Below, in pieces: positions 27,301-38,189 of a stretch of 39,249 nucleotides of DNA. How positions within the stretch are numbered: position 1 is the stretch's first letter; each line of letters starts with the position of its first letter. The DNA comes from a virus, in the IMG/VR virus record IMGVR_UViG_3300025107_000159, positions 1 to 39,249 of that record. One strand, 5' to 3'. The position numbers and the translations under genes were made by a program. The notes under the pieces were generated by a model, which was given only the letters and a program-made list of their open reading frames with translations, had not been told where the DNA came from and did not search any database.

Positions 27301-27714
27301 ATGAAAACCACGATAGAACTGCACGGCATCACGATCGAGTCTGCCGACGTGAACGCGACACAAACAACCCCTGCCCCGATAGCTGCCCAGGAAGAAATCT
27401 ACATCGGCGCAATCATCAACGCTAAAGGCGAAGGTCATCACGTCTTTCTGCTACCCGGCGATCACGAAGCCAACTGGGTGGATTCACTCGAGTGGTCGAA
27501 ATCAATCGGCGGTGACCTGCCGACACGTGTTGAGCAAGCACTTCTCTTCGCAGACTTCAAGAATGAATTCGAGGAACGCGCTTACTGGTCAAACGAGCAG
27601 CACGCAGCTTATTCAGGTTGTGCCTGGTATCAGGACTTCAACTACGGCTATCAGGACCTCAACCGCAAGGACGGCAAGTTGCGCGCCCGCTCAGTCCGCA
27701 GATCGAAATTTTAA
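27301..27714 (+). CDS. DGR variable protein 1 (DUF1566/Lcl-type)
   Basis: A 137-residue protein without a signal peptide. The N-terminal 30 residues (MKTTIELHGITIESADVNAT) are its own. From about 33 on it has the common target body: EEIYIGAIIN, GHHVFLLPGD, SIGGDLPTRVEQALLF, then YWSNEQHAA, WYQDFNYGYQ and a final LRARSVRRS. The E-ALL...YWS...RxVR pattern is that of DUF1566/Lcl_C domains, a C-type-lectin-like fold used by many DGR targets. The last third carries VR1 with 13 substitutions relative to the template, all at template adenines. The product probably displays a diversified binding surface; its ligand is unknown. Confidence 0.85.
   Translation: MKTTIELHGITIESADVNATQTTPAPIAAQEEIYIGAIINAKGEGHHVFLLPGDHEANWVDSLEWSKSIGGDLPTRVEQALLFADFKNEFEERAYWSNEQHAAYSGCAWYQDFNYGYQDLNRKDGKLRARSVRRSKF
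27599..27704 (+). repeat. DGR variable repeat VR1
   Basis: 106 bp aligned without gaps to the TR. Differences lie at TR positions 36762, 36769, 36772, 36786, 36795, 36801, 36807, 36810, 36811, 36817, 36822, 36825 and 36826, each an adenine in the TR. The 3' stretch AAGTTGCGCGCCCGCTCAGT is identical, then one C replaces TR A36851. Confidence 0.95.
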
Positions 27715-27743
27715 AAATCAAACAACCAAAGGAGAAAAGCACC

Positions 27744-28106
27744 ATGAATAACCCAGAACTAAACGAAGGTGAAATCTACGCGGGCATCCTGCTGGGCAAG
27801 GATGGCGAGCAGGATCAACACATTTTCTTGCTCCCACTACGGGCAGACGATGCCGTGACGTTCAAGCAGGCGCAGGAATTCGCTAAGGCAACTGGTGGTG
27901 ATCTGCCAACCCGTCGCGAACAGGCACTGCTCTTTGCGAACTTGCCTGAGCAGTTCGAAGAGACCTGGTACTGGTCTGGCGAAGAGCACGCAGCTAGTTC
28001 AGGTTTTGCCTGGTATCAGGACTTCAGCTACGGCAATCAGGACTACGACCGCAAGAACGACGAGTTGCGCGCCCGCTCAGTCCGCAGATCGAAAATTTCC
28101 GCTTAA
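27744..28106 (+). CDS. DGR variable protein 2 (DUF1566/Lcl-type)
   Basis: A 120-residue protein. I choose the ATG at 27744 because AAAGGAG precedes it and the same leader and start occur before variable protein 3; a longer frame upstream overlaps VR1 and is not credible. The body is LNEGEIYAGILL, HIFLLPL, ATGGDLPTRREQALLF, ETWYWSGEEHAA, WYQDFSYGNQ and LRARSVRRSKI. VR2 covers the C-terminal third with 12 adenine substitutions. Its first 20 codons and the 50 bp before VR2 are almost identical to variable protein 3, while the middle differs. Confidence 0.87.
   Translation: MNNPELNEGEIYAGILLGKDGEQDQHIFLLPLRADDAVTFKQAQEFAKATGGDLPTRREQALLFANLPEQFEETWYWSGEEHAASSGFAWYQDFSYGNQDYDRKNDELRARSVRRSKISA
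27985..28090 (+). repeat. DGR variable repeat VR2
   Basis: 106 bp aligned without gaps to the TR. Differences lie at TR positions 36763, 36769, 36772, 36786, 36793, 36795, 36807, 36810, 36813, 36817, 36825 and 36828, all TR adenines. The conserved 3' end has the same A-to-C difference at 36851 as VR1 and VR3. Confidence 0.95.
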
Positions 28107-35861: not shown

Positions 35862-36212
35862 ATGAATACCCCAGAACTAAACGAAGGTGAAATCTACGCC
35901 GGTGCGATCATCAACCCAGACGGCACAGGTCACCATTTCACTTTACTCCCCGGCGACATCGATGCCGCAAACTGGGATGACGCGATGGAGTGGGCGCAGT
36001 CTATCGGCGGCGATCTGCCTGATCGTGTTGAGCTGGCGCTGCTCTACAAGCGTTTGCCTGAGCAGTTCGAAGAGACCTGGTACTGGTCGGGCGAAGAGCA
36101 CGCAGCTGATTCAGATTATGCCTGGTATCAGGACTTCAACAACGGCTATCAGAACTACAACCGCAAGCTCCTCAAGTTGCGCGCCCGCTCAGTCCGCAGA
36201 TCGAAAATTTAA
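35862..36212 (+). CDS. DGR variable protein 3 (DUF1566/Lcl-type), cassette-proximal target
   Basis: A 116-residue protein starting MNTPELNEGEIYAGAII, then GHHFTLLPGD, SIGGDLPDRVELALLY, ETWYWSGEEHAA, WYQDFNNGYQ and LRARSVRRSKI. The C-terminal third carries VR3, with 9 substitutions against the template, including two AAC codons turned into CTC (Leu). It lies 21 bp before avd, the classical target, avd, TR, RT order. Leader and start are shared with variable protein 2. No signal peptide or membrane helix was seen. Confidence 0.9.
   Translation: MNTPELNEGEIYAGAIINPDGTGHHFTLLPGDIDAANWDDAMEWAQSIGGDLPDRVELALLYKRLPEQFEETWYWSGEEHAADSDYAWYQDFNNGYQNYNRKLLKLRARSVRRSKI
36097..36202 (+). repeat. DGR variable repeat VR3
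   Basis: 106 bp aligned without gaps to the TR, 654 bp upstream of it. Differences lie at TR positions 36762, 36786, 36801, 36810, 36817, 36822, 36823, 36825 and 36826, all TR adenines, plus the shared C at 36851. A TTAATTAATTAA palindrome follows at 36209-36220, where some DGRs have a hairpin or cruciform that helps homing. Confidence 0.95.
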
Positions 36213-36232
36213 TTAATTAAGGTTTTATCCGC

Positions 36233-36589
36233 ATGGAAAACCCATCTAACCCGCTCCTGTACAAAGCAGCGTATGACTTGCTCAGTACCGTCGTTGATCT
36301 GGTCAGCAATATGCCAAGGGGCTTTAAAAACTCCGTAGGCATTACGACCAGCGATGAGTGCATGGCTGTCGTCGTGCTGATCTTTCGCGCCAGTTGCGCG
36401 CAAGAGAAAGCAGAGTACGTCAGTGAGCTTACCGAACGACTACAAGTCACTGAGTTGTTATTGCGTCTGTCCAGGGACAAGAGGTTGATCTCAACTGGAC
36501 AGTACGCAAACGCGATCGAGCTGACAGGCGATGTCCGGGCGCAGGTTAGTGGGTGGCCGCGTTCAGCGATATCGTCTGCCAGGAGATAG
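36233..36589 (+). CDS. avd: DGR accessory variability determinant (Avd)
   Basis: A 118-residue helical protein: LLYKAAYDLLSTVVDLVSNM, PRGFKNSVG, a helix AVVVLIFRASCAQEKAEYVS, LQVTELLLRLSRDKRLIS, QYANAIELTGDVRAQVSGWP. This four-helix pattern with FK..VG and the final GW is that of Avd proteins, which form a barrel-shaped pentamer, bind the reverse transcriptase and template RNA, and are needed for cDNA synthesis. Its end contains the AGGAG site of the RT gene, which starts 2 bp later. It separates VR3 from the TR. Confidence 0.9.
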   Translation: MENPSNPLLYKAAYDLLSTVVDLVSNMPRGFKNSVGITTSDECMAVVVLIFRASCAQEKAEYVSELTERLQVTELLLRLSRDKRLISTGQYANAIELTGDVRAQVSGWPRSAISSARR

Positions 36590-36591
36590 TC

Positions 36592-37971
36592 ATGGCTACC
36601 ACTTCAGTACGAGAATTTAATCTGGTCGTGCCGCTGGCGAAAGCCACCGACAAGCGCACCTCAGATACCGCCAGCGCCTGCTGGGTCAGGTCTGGCGCAG
36701 TTTCCTTAGGGAGCAATCCTCAAGGCGACGTGGATAGCACGAATGGTCGCAGCACGCAGCTAATTCAGATTATGCCTGGTATCAGAACTTCAACAACGGC
36801 AATCAGAACAACAACCACAAGAACAACAAGTTGCGCGCCCGCTCAGTCCGAAGATCATACCGTAGGCCACCATGCTGACTTTTCTTTCGAGGAACTGGTT
36901 CAAGCCTACCTCGATTGCCGCCGTACAAAACGCAGCAAGTCATCTGCTCTTGCGTTCGAGCAGCATCTCGAAGCGAATCTATATTGTCTCGACCGGGAAC
37001 TGAGAGACGGTACGTACGCACCCGGGAAATCAATCTGCTTTGTCATCACGCGACCTAAACCCCGCGAGGTATGGGCGGCAGACTTCCGTGACCGCGTCGT
37101 GCATCACCTATTGTACAACCGCATATCGCCGCGCTTCTATGCCGGTTTTAGTGTCGACAGTTGCGCATGTATACCAGGGCGCGGGACACTCTACGGTGCC
37201 GAGAGATTAGAAGCCAAGATCAGAAGCATCACGCAGAACTGGAGCAAACCAGCTTACTATTTAAAACTCGATCTGGCTAACTTCTTTGTCAGTATCGATA
37301 AAAGAATCGTGAGGGAATTACTCTCGAGGCGTGTCACAGAATCATGGTGGATGGCGCTCACCGATACGGTTCTATTCCACGATCCCCGCAAGAACTTTGA
37401 GTTTAAAGGCGACCTCAGCAAAACGGATCTCGTACCGGCGCACAAGAAACTAGCCAATCACCCGGCTGATTTTGGATTACCGATCGGCAATCTGTCGTCG
37501 CAGTTCTTCGCTAACGTCCTGCTGGACGCACTGGATCAGCACGTTAAGCACGACATCAAAGCGCGGCATTACATCCGTTACGTTGACGACTTTATCCTAC
37601 TGCATGAGTCTGCACAGTGGCTCAATAACGCCAAGGCTGACATCGAGGCGTGGCTGCCCGCGCATTTAGGCCTACGTCTTAATCCTACGAAAACCATATT
37701 GCAACCGGTGTCGCGCGGCGTGGACTTCGTCGGGCAAGTGATCAAGCCATGGCACAGGGTAACCCGCAAACGCACGGCCAATGATGCGATGTACCGCGTG
37801 TCGACCATGCCGGCACCTGAACTATTTGAGGCGGCTAATTCCTATTTTGGCTTGTTCGGGCAAGCAACGCACGGACGCCAAAAACGCGCACAGCTAGCCA
37901 ATATCCTCCGGAAACGAGGGTATTCAATAAACACCAGCATAACAAAAACATATAGAAGGAAATCAGCATGA
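36592..37971 (+). CDS. DGR reverse transcriptase with the template repeat inside its N-terminal coding region
   Basis: 459 residues from the ATG at 36592, chosen for AGGAG at 36581-36585 and close coupling to avd. Residues about 1-53 are unrecognised, 54-88 are the TR read in the RT frame (Thr-rich), and the RT domain starts near FSFEELVQAYL at about 96. Catalytic motifs: YLKLDLANFFVSID (D227 region), FGLPIGNLSSQ (294-304; the IGNLSSQ form is typical of DGR enzymes) and YVDD (330-333). A basic maturase-like region follows. No in-frame ATG lies between TR and RT domain; the only other one is at 36772, inside the TR and without a binding site. The enzyme copies TR RNA into adenine-mutated cDNA. 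Confidence 0.88.
   Translation: MATTSVREFNLVVPLAKATDKRTSDTASACWVRSGAVSLGSNPQGDVDSTNGRSTQLIQIMPGIRTSTTAIRTTTTRTTSCAPAQSEDHTVGHHADFSFEELVQAYLDCRRTKRSKSSALAFEQHLEANLYCLDRELRDGTYAPGKSICFVITRPKPREVWAADFRDRVVHHLLYNRISPRFYAGFSVDSCACIPGRGTLYGAERLEAKIRSITQNWSKPAYYLKLDLANFFVSIDKRIVRELLSRRVTESWWMALTDTVLFHDPRKNFEFKGDLSKTDLVPAHKKLANHPADFGLPIGNLSSQFFANVLLDALDQHVKHDIKARHYIRYVDDFILLHESAQWLNNAKADIEAWLPAHLGLRLNPTKTILQPVSRGVDFVGQVIKPWHRVTRKRTANDAMYRVSTMPAPELFEAANSYFGLFGQATHGRQKRAQLANILRKRGYSINTSITKTYRRKSA
36751..36856 (+). repeat. DGR template repeat (TR)
   Basis: 106 bp matching VR1, VR2 and VR3. Read in the VR frame the core (36762-36830) contains ten AAY codons, the usual design in which mutation of the first two adenines yields many amino acids but no stop. 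The 5' end (AGCACGCAGC) and the 3' end with the G/C-only GCGCGCCCGC at 36834-36843 are constant. At 36851 the TR has A where all VRs have C. The TR RNA probably extends into the flanking avd 3' end and RT 5' region. Confidence 0.95.
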
Positions 37972-38189
37972 GTATGTTCCTGACGGCAGAAGATATATCA
38001 ACGTTAACCGGCAGGCAGCGCAGCGATGCCTAAGTAAGGATGCTTAAATTTATGGGCGTCGAGCACCGCATACGGGCCGATGGCAAGGTCGTTGTACTCC
38101 GTGCCCATGTTGAGTCCGTATTCGGTATAGCACCCGCCAGCAACAAAAAAGTTAAAGAGTACAAGCTCGATCTAAGCACAATCCGGTGA
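37968..38189 (+). pseudogene. DUF4224 gene with an in-frame stop
   Basis: The frame starts in ATGA overlap with the RT stop and reads MSMFLTAEDISTLTGRQRSDA, then TAA at 38031-38033, then in the same frame VRMLKFMGVEHRIRADGKVV and on to a TGA at 38187-38189. DUF4224 proteins lie just before phage integrases and have Gln at the stop position (R..AQ...L...G), so one CAA-to-TAA change explains it. The family is thought to help integration or excision. An ATG at 38040 could allow a restart. Readthrough is also possible. Confidence 0.8.

Follow-up and report, generated by a model that had tools for sequence, protein, structure and literature searches.

The phage diversity-generating retroelement (DGR) described here appears to lay its template and the message for its own enzyme on the same bases. 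In the reading that we favor, to which we give roughly three chances in four on the basis of sequence comparisons, one shared avd-RT-15-TR-RT transcript would be both the template RNA and the message for the reverse transcriptase (RT), which would carry a passenger extension of about 92 residues. Ribosomes that have finished avd would restart at the ATG at 36592, within the first hairpin of the structured RNA RT-15, and would read on through RT-15 and the template repeat (TR), thereby producing an RT with about 92 additional, disordered residues; the RNA, as fold and as template, would be maintained together with the open frame, and the peptide would merely be carried along. Since translation would unwind RT-15 and cover the TR, one RNA molecule could hardly be template and message at once; translation from 36592, its coupling to avd, the single shared transcript and this either-or use of it are parts of the reading that we infer. 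In a lineage that gains a start in or just after the TR, the frame upstream would become dispensable and decay, with RT-15 remaining in place.

The window, a virus record of 39,249 bases, has a tyrosine integrase at its right end and also encodes a head-tail connector and a primase-polymerase. Its DGR lies at 35.8-38.0 kb, all on the plus strand, with a small target gene that contains the first variable repeat (VR1), followed by avd, the TR and the RT. The features on which the argument draws are the following:

27597..27704, plus strand: VR2, in the ORF 27301-27714; Lcl_C match with E 1e-4, below the cut-off
27985..28090, plus strand: VR3, in the ORF ending at 28106; Lcl_C match with E 3e-5, below the cut-off
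36097..36202, plus strand: VR1, in the target ORF 35862-36212; Lcl_C match below the curated cut-off
36233..36589, plus strand: avd (accessory variability determinant), 118 aa, assigned from profile matches and from its place between target and RT
36570..36749, plus strand: RT-15 (Rfam RF03018), from 36592 onward also RT codons, identified by cmscan and covariation
36581..36585, plus strand: Shine-Dalgarno motif AGGAG, located in the first hairpin of RT-15, where it also overlaps the last bases of avd
36592..37971, plus strand: RT reading frame from its likeliest start, 459 aa plus stop, assigned from Pfam RVT_1
36751..36856, plus strand: TR, in frame with the RT and amounting to about 35 RT codons, found by its ungapped match to the three VRs
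36772..36774, plus strand: in-frame ATG within the TR, the rival RT start, without a Shine-Dalgarno motif
36857..36870, plus strand: spacer of about 14 nt from the TR to the RT domain, whose length keeps the frame in relatives

Adenine-specific TR/VR mismatches, a DGR-type RT and an avd gene, three marks of a DGR, are all present. Every mismatch between the TR and the three VRs falls on a TR adenine (10/10, 14/14 and 13/13, 37/37 in total), as do 2296 of 2318 mismatches in the relatives, with the proviso that the ungapped TR/VR score tolerates mismatches at A and so favors an adenine-only pattern. The divergence of the three VRs suggests past activity of the DGR. The RT matches Pfam RVT_1 with E 2e-15, and its best solved relative belongs to the 8UB7 series ('Reverse transcriptase', E 1e-37), which we take to be the bRT of BPP-1 and which aligns from residue 98. 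The avd product matches NCBIfam NF033474 DivGenRetAVD (40.8 bits, E 2e-10) and Pfam bAvd (33.1 bits, E 8e-8), both below their curated cut-offs. A single TR serves all three VRs, two of which, VR2 and VR3, lie about 9 kb away from it in neighboring ORFs (27301-28106) that overlap or abut. Read in the RT frame the TR gives TQLIQIMPGIRTSTTAIRTTTTRTTSCAPAQSED, and in the target frame HAANSDYAWYQNFNNGNQNNNHKNNKLRARSVRR; an alternative frame like that of the RT is open over VR1 as well (35887-36216, an ORF of 109 aa in the target gene), which is an expected by-product of TR copying and not a gene. Directly after the RT, and overlapping its stop in an ATGA, stands a DUF4224 gene (37968-38189) with an internal stop codon, which reaches 49.5 bits against a cut-off of 22 when read through that stop and may be either a broken gene or a sequencing error.

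The original prediction placed the TR inside the RT frame and drew on three features of the window, all of which we find: the frame is free of stops from GTG 36553 or ATG 36592 to the stop at 37969-37971; past the TR no ATG, and likewise no GTG or TTG, occurs in frame ahead of the conserved RT domain, and the nearest near-start, the CTG at 36895, already lies within that domain; and ATG 36592, 2 nt past the avd stop, is preceded by the ribosome binding site AGGAG, with a Shine-Dalgarno duplex energy of -7.4 against a background median of -1.7. Its account of the start codons holds for ATG 36592 and its Shine-Dalgarno motif and had overlooked the in-frame ATG 36772 inside the TR, where the energy is +1.1. 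An open frame in itself is weak evidence of translation, because in BPP-1 (L092), where the TR likewise precedes the RT, no stop interrupts the brt frame over the 699 nt ahead of its annotated ATG at 2462, a stretch that takes in spacer and TR. In the window, the 93 codons of 36592-36870 are open by chance in 2.1% of 20,000 mononucleotide shuffles; as a proof of translation the open frame was ruled out by BPP-1 together with the fact that the TR by itself frequently lacks stops in a second frame too (in 159 and 103 of 191 cassettes). It is the comparative tests, rather than the open frame, that carry the claim that the TR is probably translated.

For these tests, five scans with four RT queries and eight phage records yielded 391 loci besides BPP-1, which was kept out of all these counts. 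The resulting 392 sequences (391 loci and the window), from which L168 was dropped for want of an RT start, included 388 with 420 nt upstream; clustering left 202 non-redundant ones, 10 were set aside because the DNA retrieved for them contained no TR/VR pair, giving 192, and L048, whose TR lies more than 300 nt from its RT, was dropped, leaving 191 cassettes with the window included. Annotations of isolates were ruled out as arbiters of where the RT starts, for annotators disagree: relative to the match, the annotated RT CDS begins 195 nt 5' in Magia, 78 nt 5' in Cruim01 and 81 nt inside it in QDWS.

Defining as open a frame that is stop-free through the TR and the 150 nt of RT-15 5' of it, we found 137 of the 191 cassettes to be open and 54 broken, the stop falling in RT-15 in 25 of the latter and in the TR in 29. 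A somewhat different way of counting leaves the RT frame without stops in 139/191 cassettes and the two alternative frames in 1 and 3, a contrast that is partly built in because a conserved GACGTAGATAGC element closes the other frames. Stops in relatives, which the original prediction had named as evidence against it, thus do occur; all 54 broken cassettes, however, have an in-frame ATG, GTG or TTG in or after the TR (an ATG in 52), and since each has such a replacement start, they fit the translation reading. Conversely, 48 of the open cassettes have no ATG in or after the TR and 22 have no start there at all. When all cassettes are considered, 50 lack a later ATG, 48 of which are open, and 22 lack any later start, all of which are open. 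Fisher tests of start presence against openness give 2e-6 and 6e-4, ignoring relatedness. The tree requires a minimum of 18 switches from one state to the other, 12 of them on starred branches; an independent-pairs test on the tree is not significant (median p of 0.5), with no more than 4 informative pairs, almost all of which point the expected way. The class of open cassettes is biased towards frame-keeping, being defined by absent stops, and the split by start codons is free of that bias. Taken together, the comparison of cassettes supports the prediction that the TR is translated as part of the RT N-terminus in a frame other than that of the targets.

The same replacement starts lend some credit to a rather improbable rival, namely that the RT begins at ATG 36772 inside the TR and that RT-15 is purely an RNA, in which case about 28 of the 35 TR codons would be translated all the same. 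The window does not belong to the 50 cassettes that lack a later ATG, and 36772 could for that reason be the real start; in-TR starts probably do work, as 46 of the 54 broken cassettes have an in-frame start inside the TR, and among the open cassettes 89/137 likewise carry an ATG within the TR or past it. Nevertheless, ATG 36772 has no Shine-Dalgarno motif (+1.1 versus -7.4 at 36592), and it arises from target codons for Tyr-Ala, whereas most broken lineages inspected use Asn/Asp-Gly codons. A start with a strong Shine-Dalgarno motif lies 5' of the TR in 89 of the 137 open cassettes and in or after it in 10 (12% at random positions), and 5/54 broken cassettes have one in or after the TR. Against the favored reading, 21 of the 22 cassettes classed as having no start do possess a rare one (ATC, ATT, ATA, CTG) within the TR or shortly past it. 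Termination-reinitiation at the ATG in or after the TR of broken lineages, scored as an ORF of at least 150 nt ending no more than 30 nt from the ATG, was rejected, with 14/52 against 297/955 in the control.

Several relatives show individual arrangements of their own. In a Pseudomonas clade (L131, L133, L137, L191 and others) the RT apparently begins at an ATGATG inside the TR, which derives from the target codons Asp-Asp-Gly, stands two codons past a TGA in the TR and has no Shine-Dalgarno motif that we could see. In L151, L153, L158, L159, L163, L166, L084, L022 and L099 an ATG lies past the TR, one codon before the RT domain, and in L084, L158, L159 and L166 the TR stands in a different frame relative to the RT.

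Length changes, counted separately as parsimony minima on a FastTree tree of the RT body, bear on the second rival, which we consider quite unlikely: that the frame is open by accident, as a consequence of RNA conservation and of a stop-free RT-15 consensus, with the RT using a non-canonical start downstream. In its favor are the conservation of RT-15 as an RNA without codon bias, the GACGTAGATAGC element that closes the other two frames and the equally open frame of BPP-1. Yet indels in both RT-15 and the spacer keep the frame where a later start is absent. Where there is no later ATG, RT-15 has undergone at least 19 length changes, at least 4 of them frame-shifting; where there is one, 37 of 62 shift the frame, near the two thirds expected without constraint (Fisher p 0.004 for the contrast, relatedness ignored). 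In the spacer between TR and RT, 3 of at least 55 length changes shift the frame, and the length is not divisible by three in 8 of the 186 spacers measured; one of these, L057, reflects a misplaced motif, and in each of the remaining seven a start codon stands just past the TR. The spacer should be constrained neither by the target protein nor by RT-15, and its frame-keeping is hence the clearest sign that the 3' part of the TR is translated wherever the start lies upstream. An accident is further at odds with the later start that accompanies 54/54 closed frames, and with the fact that the window's sole near-start past the TR, CTG 36895, already falls within the conserved domain.

What lies 5' of the TR turned out to be something other than the mere N-terminus of an enzyme for which it had first been taken: positions 36570-36749 are the structured RNA RT-15, matched by cmscan over its full model (1-192 of 192) at 145.8 bits, well above the gathering score of 82 (E 2e-36), and not a protein domain. 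Rfam scans of 35 relatives detected RT-15, presumed to be the 5' half of the DGR template RNA, in 33 (17/17 and 16/18), the two without it being L071, whose sequence is cut off 140 nt upstream, and BPP-1. In a sample of 60 of the 137 open cassettes, consisting of the window and 59 chosen at random, 32 of 42 pairs have changed on both sides, and 0/500 shuffles reach the observed value of any measure; the fold is kept equally well in the 54 broken cassettes, with 35 of 47 pairs changed on both sides. The first hairpin is poorly kept in the window. Downstream, Rfam gave no match 3' of the TR up to 37100, and third-position rates are not lowered near the 5' end of the RT body, giving no sign of RNA constraint there; an extension of the RNA element into the RT body was ruled out by the lack of such a dip in the first codons.

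Selection on this stretch seems to see bases and not amino acids. Substitutions in RT-15 between close open pairs amount to 0.069, 0.076 and 0.081 at codon positions 1, 2 and 3, with similar values for broken pairs; in the RT body the corresponding values are 0.041, 0.031 and 0.177. An excess of synonymous change in residues 1-53, for which the original prediction had proposed to look, is not there, and the peptide is without visible selection. AlphaFold2, run with 61 sequences, gives a pLDDT below 50 throughout residues 1-92, whereas most of the RT body reaches about 95, and Pfam has no match within 36553-36870. A conserved functional domain in the N-terminal 92 residues, e.g. one that binds RNA, would account for the apparent conservation of residues 1-53 among open relatives; codon positions carry no bias, however, and the same bases are kept where the frame is lost. 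With the Pfam search and the pLDDT values pointing the same way, we regard such a protein domain as ruled out for practical purposes, at a very small residual probability. From the covariation, the absence of codon bias and the predicted disorder it follows that RNA and open frame, and not the peptide, are what is selected; as far as the cassettes tell, the extension seems to be translated and its amino acids unselected.

Predicted folds offer a hint as to how the favored shared transcript might be divided between its two uses. In 75 open relatives that have an in-frame ATG at the conserved place, this ATG is predicted to be paired in the first RT-15 hairpin, with a mean unpaired probability of 0.15 versus 0.39 for the whole RNA, which suggests that folding and translation may be mutually exclusive; in the window, ATG 36592 is about half open in the predicted fold (0.50-0.71), being only partly paired. 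A tentative and rather doubtful extension of the favored reading is a switch, whereby the RT-15 fold would hide the RT start, so that RNA bound by RT-Avd would not be translated and RNA under translation would not be copied. If such a switch were true, loading of the RT onto its template would shut off the synthesis of the RT itself, and competition between ribosome and RT for one molecule would set the mutation rate of the DGR.

These findings would place template RNA, structured RNA and coding sequence on the same bases, and the lineages with and without a later start form a natural experiment that separates selection on the RNA from selection on the frame. They also make it testable how a DGR splits one transcript between translation and copying, and suggest that RT starts in this clade are inconsistently annotated, which matters both for expressing these RTs and for building DGR tools.

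Part of this arrangement is already known, since the overlap of a TR with an RT ORF has been published and RT-15 is an established RNA. The window shares with DiGReF group 3 a TR that lies inside the 5' part of the RT ORF; that group was classed by annotation, and the accessible text describing it mentions neither a test of translation nor a structured RNA in the frame. With RF03018 the window shares a full-length match; that family is filed as an RNA gene, and the record of phage Cruim01 has a misc_RNA beside a short RT CDS. A partial search of the literature returned no published report of translation through a TR or through RT-15. What is new is that the overlap with the RT frame takes in the structured RNA RT-15 and, judging from the cassettes compared, that the frame persists where the RT depends on it and decays elsewhere, with a peptide that looks like a passenger. 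The closest well-studied counterpart is the DGR of BPP-1 (mtd-avd-TR-brt), which has the same order of target with VR, avd, TR and RT on one strand, a homologous RT (30% identity) and Avd, and TR/VR differences at adenines. In BPP-1, however, the TR is followed on its 3' side by a spacer of 144 nt, which contains the Rfam Phage_DGR RNA (RF03022) and precedes the brt ATG; according to the accessible part of PMC12875486, this spacer adopts a fold, brings in RT-Avd and provides an internal adenine for priming. The window instead has an RNA of another family, RT-15, 5' of its TR, and its RT domain begins about 14 nt past the TR, with no structured priming spacer of the BPP-1 type detected there by Rfam. 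Its DGR has a layout that does without such a structured 3' spacer, the basis of the priming model for BPP-1.
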